In this document: one piece after another, positions 49,569 to 56,252 of the stretch
How positions within the stretch are numbered: the first letter of the stretch is position 1
Layout: every line of letters starts with the position of its first letter
Source: Neptunomonas japonica JAMM 1380
Lineage (GTDB): Bacteria; Pseudomonadota; Gammaproteobacteria; Pseudomonadales; Balneatricaceae
NCBI RefSeq assembly: GCF_016592555.1
Contig: NZ_AP014546.1
Coordinates: forward strand, 2,800,501 to 2,864,500
Length of the DNA stretch: 64,000 bases
Direction of reading: 5' to 3'
Made by a program: the position numbers and the translations under genes
The notes under the pieces: generated by a model
Told to the model about the DNA's origin: nothing
The model's database searches: none
Seen by the model: the letters and a program-made list of their open reading frames with translations, nothing else

Positions 49569-51605
49569 ATGCCAGATACTCAGCGAAAAATACTCGTTAC
49601 AAGCGCCCTACCGTATGCCAACGGCCCTATTCATCTAGGCCATTTGGTTGAATATATTCAGACCGATATATGGGTACGATTCCAGAAACAACGCGGCCAT
49701 AATTGCACGTATGTTTGTGCTGATGATGCGCACGGCACGCCCATTATGCTGAAAGCCGACCAGCTAGGCATTACCCCTGAAGAGCTAATCCAAAAAGTAA
49801 GCCAAGACCACCAAAAGGACTTTTCAGGTTTTATGGTGGGGTTTGATAATTACTATTCGACTCATTCAGAGGAAAATAAGCATTTTGCATCGCTGGTTTA
49901 CACGCGACTACGTGATAAAGGTCATATATCTAAAAAGACCATCACACAAGCTTACGACCCTGAAAAAGAGATGTTTTTACCCGATCGCTTTGTAAAAGGC
50001 GACTGCCCTAAATGTGGCGCTCTTGATCAGTATGGTGACTCATGTGAAAAATGTGGTGCGACATATAGTCCGGTAGACCTAAAAAATGCTTACTCTGCTG
50101 TCTCTGGTGCTAAACCAATAGAAAAAGAGTCTGAACACTACTTTTTTAAACTCGGTGACTTTGAAGAGTTTCTACGCAACTGGGTTGATAAGCATGTTCA
50201 ATCTCAGATGGTTCATAAACTGAATGAATGGTTTGAGTCTGGCTTACAAAATTGGGACATTTCCCGTGACGCTCCTTATTGGGGATTTGAAATTCCAGAC
50301 GCACCCGGTAAGTATTTCTACGTTTGGTTAGATGCCCCTATTGGCTACATGGCTAGCTTCAAAAACTGGTGCGATAAAACAGGCGTAGAGTTCGATGAAT
50401 ACTGGGATGAAGCGTCAAACACCGAGCTGTATCACTTTATTGGTAAAGATATCGCTTACTTCCATACATTATTCTGGCCAGCCATGCTGGAAGGCGCGGG
50501 CTTTAAAAAGCCAGATGGAGTGTTCTGTCATGGCTTTTTGACCGTTGACGGCCAAAAGATGTCGAAGTCACGTGGCACCTTCATCATGGCGGAAACGTAC
50601 CTTAACCACCTTCGCCCAGAATACCTTCGTTATTATTTTGCAGCCAAGCTTGGTTCAGGCATTGACGATATTGACCTAAACCTTGAAGACTTCCGCATGC
50701 GTGTTAATGCGGACTTAGTTAATAAGGTGGTCAACATAGCCTCTCGATGTGCTGGCTTTATTCACAAGAAATTTGACGGAAAACTTTCGGCAGAGCTTTC
50801 ATCTCCCAAGCTCTACCAAGAAGCAGTCACTGCCGGCGACTCCATTGCTGATGCTTATGAGAAACGTGAATTCGGGCGAGCCATGCGTGAAATCATGGCG
50901 ATCGCTGATAAAGCCAATCAATACATTGATACAGCTGAACCTTGGGTACTCGCCAAACAGGAAGACAAACAACAGGAGGTTCAAGACTGCTGTTCAATGG
51001 GTATCAACCTCTTCCGCGTTATCTGCACCTACTTAGCACCAGTACTTCCTCTGGTTACTGAGGATGTAAAAGCATTCCTAAACTTGGAGTCACTTGCTTG
51101 GGATACCGTCAAACAGCCACTAACCAATCATACTGTTAATAAATTCAAACCGCTGATGCAGCGTGTAGATGAAGATAAAATAGCGGCACTGATTGAAGAT
51201 AGCCGTCAGACAATGGAAGCAACTGCTGCCATACAAGCCCCTATAGAATCATCACCGCTAAGTGATGACCCTATCAGCGATACAATTTCTTTTGACGACT
51301 TTGCAAAAGTTGATCTTCGAGTAGCACTGATAGCCAAAGCTGAGCACGTAGACGGTGCGAAGAAGCTACTGCGGCTGACACTTGATCTAGGTGGAGAGAC
51401 CCGAAATGTCTTTGCTGGCATAAAATCAGCCTATTCACCTGAAGATCTACAAGGCAAGCTAACTGTTATGGTTGCCAACCTAGCACCTCGTAAAATGAAG
51501 TTTGGCATGTCTGAAGGCATGGTCTTAGCAGCAGGTCCTGGTGGCGAAGAGCTGTGGATTTTAGAGCCTCATGCAGGAGCTCAACCTGGTATGCGCATTA
51601 AATAG
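49569..51605 (+). CDS. metG: Methionyl-tRNA synthetase
   Basis: Charges tRNA-Met. The 678 residues match the long form of gammaproteobacteria. HIGH-type motif [12 protein letters not shown], zinc-binding CPKCG and CEKCG near 147-163, KMSKS motif [12 protein letters not shown] at about 335, and a C-terminal EMAPII-like tRNA-binding domain ([20 protein letters not shown]) used for dimerisation. The stop is TAG, which confirms that amber ends translation in this genome. Confidence 0.98.
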
Positions 51606-51941: not shown

Positions 51942-52028
51942 TTATTCTCCAATGGGTGTTGCATCTAAACGCAGCACACCGCAGACCACTATAAAAATAA
52001 CTTCCCTGATCCTAGGAGGATTACTCTA

Positions 52029-53045
52029 ATGATGAAAACGAGTTTAATTACAGCAGCAATTCTTACAGTAAGCTTTGCTGGCCACGCTATGGCAGAAGGA
52101 ACTTTAGATGCAGTTAAAGCCAGAGGTGTTGTTCAGTGTGGTGTTACCACTGGGCTAGCAGGCTTTTCTAATCCGGATGAAAAGGGTAACTAGAATGGTT
52201 TAGATGTTGACCTATGCCGTGCAGTTGCAGCAGCAGCGTTAGGTGATGCCAGTAAAGTTAAATTTATTCCTCTAACCGCTAAGGAACGCTTTACCGCTCT
52301 ACAATCTGGTGAAATCGATGTTCTATCTCGTAACACTACGTGGACGCAGACTCGTGATACTCAACTAGGCCTTAACTTTGCCGGCGTGAATTACTATGAC
52401 GGCCAAGGCTTTATGGTAGCTAAATCTCTAGGTGTAAAAAGTGCAAAAGAGCTTGATGGTGCAGCCTTCTGTATTCAGGCAGGCACGACAACAGAGCTAA
52501 ACTTAGCTGATTATTTCCGCCAAAACGGTATGACATACTCTCCTGTTGTATTCGATACATCTGACCAGACGGCTAAAGGCTTCGATGCAGGACGTTGTGA
52601 CGTCCTAACCTCTGACCAATCTCAGTTATATGCTATTCGTATCAAACTAGAAAAACCTGATGATGCAATGGTATTACCAGAAGTTATTTCAAAAGAGCCA
52701 CTTGGCCCCGTTGTGCGTCAAGGTGATGACCAGTGGTTTAACGTTGTGAAATGGACTCACAATGCCATGCTAAACGCAGAAGAGCTGGGTATTACTTCAG
52801 CAAATGCGGATGAAATGATGAAGTCTTCAAATCCAAATGTACGTCGCCTACTTGGCCTTGAAGGACCAAAAGGAACAGGTCTTGGACTTAATGATGACTG
52901 GGCTTACCAAATTGTTAAGCAAGTAGGTAACTACGGAGAAGCATTTGACAACAATGTCGGCGCTAACTCACCACTGAAAGTAAGTCGCGGTATTAATGCA
53001 CTGTGGACAAATGGTGGCTTACAGTACGCACCACCTATGCGTTAA
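52029..53045 (+). pseudogene. aapJ: aapJ, amino-acid ABC transporter binding protein, interrupted by an amber codon
   Basis: Periplasmic solute-binding protein for general L-amino acids. Reading from ATG 52029, with AGGAGG nine bases upstream, gives a signal peptide, LDAVKARGVVQCGVTTGLAGF, then DEKGN followed by TAG at 52191-52193 (codon 55), then NGLDVDLCRAVAAAALGD. The family has Trp at this position, so one G to A change in TGG explains it. The frame is otherwise open to the TAA at 53045. The full product would be 338 residues, the family length. The largest piece from a later start (GTG 52386) would lack the signal peptide and part of lobe 1. It is either a recent nonsense mutation or a base-call error. 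Confidence 0.9.
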
Positions 53046-53150
53046 TCATTTTTAGTTGGCTATGGAACTCAGGTTCCATAGCCCTCTATAGTTGATTCCA
53101 GATAGGGGTTCTTTTTAAGACCCCTTTCTATCTGTTCCGTGGAGAATTCG

Positions 53151-54353
53151 ATGTCGACACTTGATCGATCAAACCAAAAGAATTCTGCAACTCAACCAAG
53201 CAGTGGTCGTTTCTGGAACGACCCGGATAAACGCGCCCTGTTTTTCCAAGTATTACTTGTCTTGGGGCTTGCAGCCTTCTTCCTCTATATTATAAACAAT
53301 ACGCTAAGCAACCTTGAGCAACGCGGTATTACTACGGGCTTTGCTTTCCTAGATGTGGAAGCAGGTTTCGGTATTTTACAATCTCTCATTCCTTATACTG
53401 AAACAGACAGTTATGGTCGTACTTTCTTAGTTGGCTTGTTAAACACTGTTCTAGTATCTGTAATGGGTATCATTGCCGCCACACTCTTAGGTTTTTTCTT
53501 AGGTGTGGGTCGTCTATCAAAAAATTGGCTAGTTTCAAAAATTTGTACTGTCTATATTGAAATTTTTCGTAATATCCCTCTATTACTACAAATATTTTTC
53601 TGGTACTTCGCTGTTCTTCGAACACTACCCAGCCCAAGGCAAAGTATTGAGTTCCTTGGAAGCTTTATTAACGTTCGCGGTATCTATATGCCTGAACCCG
53701 TCGGAACTGATGGGTTTAATTATGTATGGATAGCCTTTTTCTTAGGCATAGTGGCCACATGGCTACTTAAACGCTGGGCAGATAAACGCCAAGACGATAC
53801 TGGACAGGATTTTCCTACTTTATATGCAGGTTTAGGGCTTATCTTAGGCTTACCTTTTGTTGTGTTCCTTATTATGGGAATGCCATTAGAGATTGATCAA
53901 CCAGCACTTAAAGGCTTTAATTTTGTAGGTGGCATGGTATTGATTCCCGAGCTAATGGCTTTGTGGTTGGCACTCACAATTTACACAGCGGCTTTTATCG
54001 CAGAAATAGTGCGTGGTGGTATTCTTTCTGTGCCAAACGGCCAGTTAGAAGCGGCAAGTGCTTTAGGCCTTCCTCGCGGAAGAACATTAAGATTTATTAT
54101 TCTTCCTCAAGCATTGCGCGTCATAATACCCCCACTTACTAGCCAATACCTTAACCTCACAAAAAACTCATCTCTAGCAACCGCTATTGGTTACCCTGAT
54201 CTGGTATCAGTATTTGCAGGCACAACACTGAACCAAACGGGACAAGCCATTGAGGTTATTTTCATGACCATGGCCGTATACCTGACGTTAAGCATTCTGA
54301 CGTCAATATTTATGAACTGGTATAACAGCCGTAAAGCTTTGATTGAGCGATAG
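53151..54353 (+). CDS. aapQ: Amino-acid ABC transporter permease AapQ
   Basis: A 400-residue inner-membrane permease. N-terminal helix (FFQVLLVLGLAAFFLYII), then the BPD_transp_1 domain with a long insertion between helices typical of AapQ/BztB. The EAA loop that docks the ATPase is EAASALGLPRGRTLRFIILP. ATG 53151 follows GGAG. A GTG four codons earlier is not needed. 105 bases follow the aapJ stop. The stop is TAG. Confidence 0.94.
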   Translation: MSTLDRSNQKNSATQPSSGRFWNDPDKRALFFQVLLVLGLAAFFLYIINNTLSNLEQRGITTGFAFLDVEAGFGILQSLIPYTETDSYGRTFLVGLLNTVLVSVMGIIAATLLGFFLGVGRLSKNWLVSKICTVYIEIFRNIPLLLQIFFWYFAVLRTLPSPRQSIEFLGSFINVRGIYMPEPVGTDGFNYVWIAFFLGIVATWLLKRWADKRQDDTGQDFPTLYAGLGLILGLPFVVFLIMGMPLEIDQPALKGFNFVGGMVLIPELMALWLALTIYTAAFIAEIVRGGILSVPNGQLEAASALGLPRGRTLRFIILPQALRVIIPPLTSQYLNLTKNSSLATAIGYPDLVSVFAGTTLNQTGQAIEVIFMTMAVYLTLSILTSIFMNWYNSRKALIER

Positions 54354-54366
54354 GTGGAGAGAAAAT

Positions 54367-55464
54367 ATGAAATATGATTTAGAACCCACCCTACCAGCAC
54401 CTCCCAGTACAACAGGAGTATTAGGCTGGCTAAGAAGAAACCTATTTAGTAATGCGACTAACTCAATTGCCACACTCGTTATTGGCTACTTTTTAGTCAC
54501 ATTACTGGGTCCAGCCTTACAATGGACGTTTATAGACTCAGACTGGTTTGGTGATTCTCCTGCAGCCTGCACCAGTGGAGGTGCCTGTTGGGCGTTTATC
54601 ACTTACCGCATGGACCAATTCATGTACGGGTTTTACCCTGATACTGAATACTGGCGCATAAATGCTACCTTCCTCATCTTTGCTGTTGCTATTGTCTGGC
54701 TGGTTGTTGATAAAACACCTTACAAAGGCTATGTCTCAGTATTTGTTCTTTTCATCTACCCTATCATTGCTTTTTACCTGCTTTATGGAGGAAGCTTTGG
54801 TTTAGATATTGTTGAGACCCACAAGTGGGGAGGCCTCAGCCTCACACTAGTACTTGCCGTTATAGGTATTGTTGCTGCCATGCCCTTCGGCATACTGCTG
54901 GCGCTAGGTCGACGCTCTAACATGCCAATCGTAAAGTCCTTTTCAGTGATTTACATTGAATTTTGGCGCGGCGTTCCGTTGATCACGGTTCTGTTTATGG
55001 CTTCAGTCATGCTACCCCTGTTTGTCCCTGAAGAGATCACCTTTGACAAACTATTACGTGCCTTGATCGGCATCATACTTTTCCAATCAGCCTATATGGC
55101 AGAGGTTATTCGTGGGGGCCTTCAAGCAATACCTAAAGGCCAATATGAAGCGGCTGACGCATTAGGTTTAGGTTATTGGAAATCGATGTCATTAATCATT
55201 CTTCCGCAAGCACTTAAACTGATGATTCCGGGCATCGTGAACACCTTCATTGCTCTGTTCAAAGATACCAGCCTAGTTCTTATCATTGGCTTGTTCGATA
55301 TCCTAGCGATTGTCCAAGCAGCAAATAGTGACTCTGCTTGGCTAGGATTCTCAACGGAAGGCTATATTTTTGTTGCTTTTGTTTTCTGGGTCTTTTGTTT
55401 TGGTATGTCTCGTTATAGCCAAAACCTTGAAAAACGCCTACAAACCGGACACAACACGCGCTAA
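54367..55464 (+). CDS. aapM: Amino-acid ABC transporter permease AapM
   Basis: Second permease, 365 residues. It has the AapM-like N-terminal region ([20 protein letters not shown]) and several helices. The EAA loop is [20 protein letters not shown], followed by [23 protein letters not shown] 54367 has GGTGGAGAG upstream. The reading frame extends back to overlap aapQ, but the Shine-Dalgarno fixes the start 13 bases after the aapQ stop. Confidence 0.94.
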
Positions 55465-55481
55465 AAGACGTGGAGATTATT

Positions 55482-56252
55482 ATGAGTACACAAGAAACAC
55501 ACGAAGCATCAGACCAGTTGATGATAGAACTAAAAGAAATGAACAAGTGGTATGGCGATTTTCACGTCTTAAAGAATATAAACCTTCAAGTTAAAAAAGG
55601 TGAGCGTATTGTTATCTGCGGCCCTTCTGGCTCAGGAAAATCAACAATGATCCGGTGTATTAACCGACTAGAAGAACACCAAAAAGGTGACATCATTGTT
55701 AATGGAATGGAGCTTACGAACGACTTAAAAAACATTGAAAGCATACGTAAAGATGTCGGTATGGTGTTCCAGCATTTCAACCTTTTCCCACACCTCACTG
55801 TGCTTGAAAACTGCTGCCTAGCTCCTATCTGGGTCAGGAAGGAGCCGCGTAAACAGGCAGAAGCGGCGGCAATGAAATATTTAGAGCGTGTAAAAATACC
55901 GGAACAAGCCTTAAAATACCCTGGGCAATTATCCGGTGGGCAGCAGCAACGTGTTGCCATAGCACGCTCTCTTTGCATGAACCCTGACGTAATGCTTTTT
56001 GATGAACCTACATCAGCACTTGATCCAGAAATGATCAAGGAAGTGCTCGATGTAATGATCGAACTGGCAGATGAAGGCGGTATGACTATGTTATGCGTGA
56101 CTCATGAAATGGGCTTTGCAAAAACAGTTGCCGACCGTGTTATTTTCATGGATGCAGGACAAATTATTGAAGAAAATGAACCTCATGAGTTCTTCAACAA
56201 CCCGCAACATGAACGCACACAACTATTCCTGAGCCAGATAATCCAGCACTAA
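55482..56252 (+). CDS. aapP: Amino-acid ABC transporter ATPase AapP
   Basis: Cytoplasmic ATPase, 256 residues. Walker [11 protein letters not shown]-loop [12 protein letters not shown], signature LSGGQQQR, Walker [13 protein letters not shown] and H-loop VTHEMGFAK are intact. ATG 55482 has GTGGAG eight bases upstream. The aapM stop is 17 bases upstream. With an intact AapP, AapQ and AapM, only the binding protein of this operon is broken. Confidence 0.96.

Follow-up and report, generated by a model that had tools for sequence, protein, structure and literature searches.

An in-frame TAG at a conserved tryptophan codon interrupts aapJ in one of two aap operons of Neptunomonas japonica JAMM 1380

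Within the 64,000-nucleotide stretch of Neptunomonas japonica JAMM 1380 DNA analysed here (the window), we examined an aap operon whose first gene, aapJ, belongs by product class to the substrate-binding proteins of general L-amino-acid ABC transporters (Table 1). The order of its genes, binding protein, two permeases and ATPase, is that of AapJQMP in Rhizobium leguminosarum and Sinorhizobium meliloti, and one source describes AapJ as the binding protein, AapQM as the permeases and AapP as the ATPase (PMC2978685). Close homologues of the AapJ studied here are named 'general L-amino acid transport system substrate-binding protein' by one source. Unlike in rhizobial AapJQMP, aapJ is interrupted here, and the genome carries a second, open aap operon.

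Table 1. Positions of the first aap operon and its features within the window.
Feature	Position	Strand	Remarks
Ribosome-binding site of aapJ	52014..52019	+	AGGAGG; identical in genomes G001, G004 and G005
aapJ frame, interrupted at codon 55	52029..53045	+	ATG to TAA, 338 codons
In-frame TAG, codon 55 of aapJ	52191..52193	+	TGG (Trp) in 7 of 7 other same-genus genomes searched
Downstream in-frame ORF of aapJ	52386..53045	+	GTG start, 219 aa; lacks the signal peptide and first 119 residues
aapQ, permease	53151..54353	+	Open, ends in TAG; permease domain as expected
aapM, permease	54367..55464	+	Open; permease domain as expected
aapP, ATPase	55482..56252	+	Open; ATPase domain as expected

A preliminary description of this DNA had placed a TAG stop at codon 55 of aapJ within a frame open on either side, and reading of the frame confirmed both points, this TAG being the sole stop ahead of the final TAA. 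With the one TAG inside it, the aapJ frame still matches PF00497 above the cut-off and falls by sequence among the PAAT-type substrate-binding proteins, although the continuous frame that a secreted two-lobe protein needs is broken at codon 55. The 54-aa product that precedes the stop gave no Pfam match at E 0.001.

The other three genes were found intact, as had been described, with open frames and the expected domains; their starts were taken as the ATG codons inside the listed ORFs 53139-54353 (aapQ), 54343-55464 (aapM) and 55470-56252 (aapP). Between aapJ and aapQ, at 53058-53125, lie two stem-forming repeats, the first of which keeps its pairing in G001, the nearest same-genus genome, despite changes on both sides (GGCTATGG...CCATAGCC versus GGATATGG...CCATATCC). 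Below aapJ, these repeats might serve to stabilise the RNA or as an attenuator. Upstream of aapJ, the ribosome site differs by one base in G007, and the upstream DNA shows good conservation in G001 and partial conservation in the other relatives compared. The view that both promoter and ribosome site look functional stands for the AGGAGG motif; a simple sigma-70 scan of the plus strand upstream of aapJ returned no promoter-like site, so that the claim of a functional promoter rests on conservation only.

Comparison with close relatives upheld the tryptophan context at codon 55. Among 57 genomes searched in full (our own included), 43 contained an aapJ match, and an internal stop ('1 TAG') was listed solely for our own copy; each of the seven other same-genus genomes searched combines TGG at codon 55 with an open aapJ. 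The open AapJ of G001 is 98% identical in protein along its entire length (94.9% identity at the DNA level), and the best named relative among the matches listed is Neptunomonas qingdaonensis (AapJ 91% identical). Residue 55 was tryptophan in 19 of the 20 loci of the whole-genome search (the remaining one being our own stop copy), in 79 of 80 named-genome loci among the matches listed, with tyrosine in the other, and in 119 of 120 database proteins among the matches listed, again with a single tyrosine; some organisms occur in more than one of the three sets. In the best matched stretch, a stop is absent from all 99 non-own loci among the matches listed. A protein search for a full-length AapJ of the same species covered the best 120 of 8000 scored, as clusters at 90% identity; its top-scoring database protein, P0001 (481 aa), is internally duplicated, and the search helped little. 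A second isolate of the species was not identified. A different native residue combined with a later start was ruled out, because tryptophan hardly varies at this site across the sets compared and the start is likewise conserved. With an internal stop, open orthologues and TAG in use as a stop, aapJ has the make-up of a nonsense pseudogene, and it differs from known ones in nothing notable beyond the gene affected.

We then assigned codon differences between our own aapJ and that of G001 to either branch, using G007 as outgroup. Our own branch carries 20 synonymous and 3 amino-acid-changing differences, one of the three being the stop itself, and the G001 branch carries 18 and 2, with 7 and 2 unassignable to either. 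Synonymous and amino-acid-changing counts on our own branch were similar in aapQ (31 and 2), aapM (24 and 1) and aapP (39 and 1), showing that the aap operon was constrained as a whole until recently. In a simple Poisson estimate (neutral ratio about 2.6, assumed transition weight 3), the probability of at most two other amino-acid-changing differences would be 0.026 had aapJ been unconstrained for 10% of our own branch, and 0.0005 had it been so for 20%. Judged from this constraint and the few changes apart from the stop, the aapJ stop is very recent or not real.

We consider it probable (roughly 0.6) that the TAG represents a nonsense allele of aapJ, of an ordinary kind and very recent origin. 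A G-to-A point change in the middle of the conserved tryptophan codon would have turned TGG into TAG, and would have arisen very recently in the lineage, perhaps in the strain that was sequenced or during its culture. Single broken genes are ordinarily carried by bacterial genomes. A single-base assembly error, with aapJ intact in the organism, is a credible alternative that we hold at somewhat below even odds. It fits the state of the gene, which is otherwise kept, under constraint like that of aapQMP, and free of a second lesion, and in having one stop, open relatives and no further decay, aapJ is like recent nonsense pseudogenes and assembly-derived false ones alike. About 14 kb away, moreover, a histidine kinase gene shows a one-base deletion in an A-run, a common type of assembly error, which keeps a sequence error at aapJ plausible. 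PMC11017572, in which pseudogenes of the aapJ type are discussed, attributes many of the internal stops and frameshifts that public genomes carry to assembly errors, but it also reports that, between nearly identical genomes, only 8.2% of internal-stop pseudogenes differ on average. Against an error, the assembly is one contig of 4,095,481 bases rated 99.91% complete, and across 292 common genes (about 100,000 codons) clear disruptions numbered two in our own genome and one in the relative, which argues that errors are not widespread.

Two further explanations would have some AapJ made despite the stop. Readthrough of the TAG, by a suppressor tRNA or a leaky stop, would yield some full-length AapJ, and the fully open frame downstream would allow it, but we consider it highly improbable. 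ARAGORN detected 61 distinct tRNAs (copies alike in both sequence and near flanks being counted once), none with anticodon CTA, TTA or TCA, and the 65 places in the genome matched by the Rfam tRNA model all lie inside the ARAGORN-scanned stretches; in an initial pass 150 of 235 candidates were scored, and a highly unusual tRNA may therefore have escaped detection. The genome has an intact gene for release factor 1 (prfA), and TAG also terminates metG upstream of aapJ (51603-51605) and aapQ (54351-54353). The absence of such anticodons among the tRNAs found, together with an intact prfA, makes TAG most likely a normal stop in this host, as the preliminary description had held, and neither a tRNA-CUA nor a loss of release factor 1 that would mark stop reassignment or suppression was found. 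A conserved readthrough site is unlikely, since the same-genus relatives have a sense codon at this position. Translation might instead restart downstream, at the GTG of a 219-aa ORF that is open past the TAG, and give a shortened but working AapJ. This ORF does retain a match to NCBIfam TIGR01096 (E 8.5e-31), but its 107 bits fall below the cut-off of 256. Its product would, however, be missing 119 of 338 residues, and it has no Pfam match at E 0.001, and we find a working restart scarcely credible.

A tRNA-type DNA pattern bearing CTA matched six times in comparison with three for a control (the pattern reversed). Three of the six matches lie inside tRNAs that fit Ser-GCT, Arg-CCT and Arg-TCT (read by position), one overlaps a tRNA on the opposite strand, and two fall at one place that has no listed tRNA. 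Suppression of the aapJ TAG is thus unsupported by the tRNA set, by the CTA-pattern search and by prfA.

The comparison of disruptions with G001 was reciprocal and covered about 417 kb of our own genome, using ORFs of at least 100 aa (354 of G001, 357 of our own), of which 292 genes found a counterpart of at least 85% identity in either direction; a stop was counted unless it fell in the final 5% of the match. Nine disrupted entries were obtained in our own genome and seven in G001. We set aside those with a stop in the first 27 alignment positions (five of nine and five of seven, respectively), reading them, though not individually checked, as over-extended mechanical ORF starts, and treated as unclear the short ORFs with no Pfam match (two of our own, 101 and 107 aa; one of G001, 140 aa). 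The clear disruptions left were aapJ and the histidine kinase in our own genome and a WYL-domain regulator in G001, and a widely error-ridden assembly was rejected on these counts. The 5% filter left out a 729-aa gene whose G001 copy is cut by a stop at residue 726. The sensor histidine kinase (L166, near 2215; at about 66215 in window coordinates and so beyond the end of the window) is 465 aa in both G001 and G007, and our own copy is one base short in the A-run, a frameshift that cuts the ATPase domain. The HTH-WYL regulator (229 aa) is open in our own genome (L207:5801-6490) and frameshifted in G001 (G001:C2, about 196162-196718).

The core of the earlier interpretation, that either a recent nonsense change or an error in the sequence accounts for the TAG at this conserved tryptophan codon while the rest of the aap operon is intact, holds against the relatives, the tRNA set and the substitution counts. 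If the nonsense allele is real, translation would end after 54 residues, comprising the signal peptide (identified by reading) and about 30 mature residues, so that no working AapJ would be expected from this gene (aapJ1). The function of the AapJ1 protein would be lost, and expression of aapQMP might be reduced by polarity. Matches of the 219-aa ORF are confined to the later parts of PAAT binding proteins. Its product, if made, would not be exported and is not expected to work, because neither the signal peptide nor any of the first 119 residues is included.

The preliminary description went further than its core in proposing that the stop would leave the permease complex without its binding protein, a claim that overlooked the second open aapJQMP operon and its intact AapJ2. 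This operon lies about 1.2 Mb away on the minus strand (G000:C1, about 4048189-4052481; L151:4190-8482), and all four of its frames, which take the places of J, Q, M and P, are open. AapJ2 (339 aa) is 62% identical to AapJ1 and matches PF00497, AapQ2 is 53% identical to AapQ1, and aapM2 and aapP2 were named from their place and from reading of the frames. By ORF reading, the second operon adjoins a D-cysteine desulfhydrase / ACC deaminase-like gene and TRAP transporter genes. An AapJ2-like gene at 62% is found in G001 and G007 too, and is therefore probably older than the aapJ stop. In the genome as a whole, PF00497 has 13 matches (aapJ1 and aapJ2 included, some sharing a frame) and PF13458 has six, five of them over the cut-off.

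With a second open operon present, the cell need not lose this type of transporter. The second operon may replace the first aap system, or AapJ2 may even supply the binding protein to it. For Rhizobium, PMC2978685 describes overlapping uptake by Aap and Bra, and isoleucine uptake in S. meliloti is reported there to be largely kept in an aapJ braC mutant and lost in an aapJ braD mutant, from which it appears that another binding protein can serve a permease in that organism. By analogy with this rhizobial precedent, and given the second operon and the other PF00497 and PF13458 matches, loss of AapJ1 is likely tolerable. It is very improbable, in our estimate, that the cell has given up one general amino-acid transporter in favour of the second, with aapJ1 in the course of being lost, aapQMP1 retained and supplied by AapJ2 or a different binding protein, and the stop marking an early tolerated step in the merging of two systems.

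If the TAG is a recent nonsense allele, the loss of AapJ1 would thus be partly covered by the second operon and by other amino-acid transporters. The stop calls for no new mechanism, and its explanation is ordinary. For annotation and nutrition work with this strain, it is advisable to regard the first aap operon as probably non-functional pending a check of the TAG base, and to ascribe amino-acid uptake to the second aap operon and to other systems.
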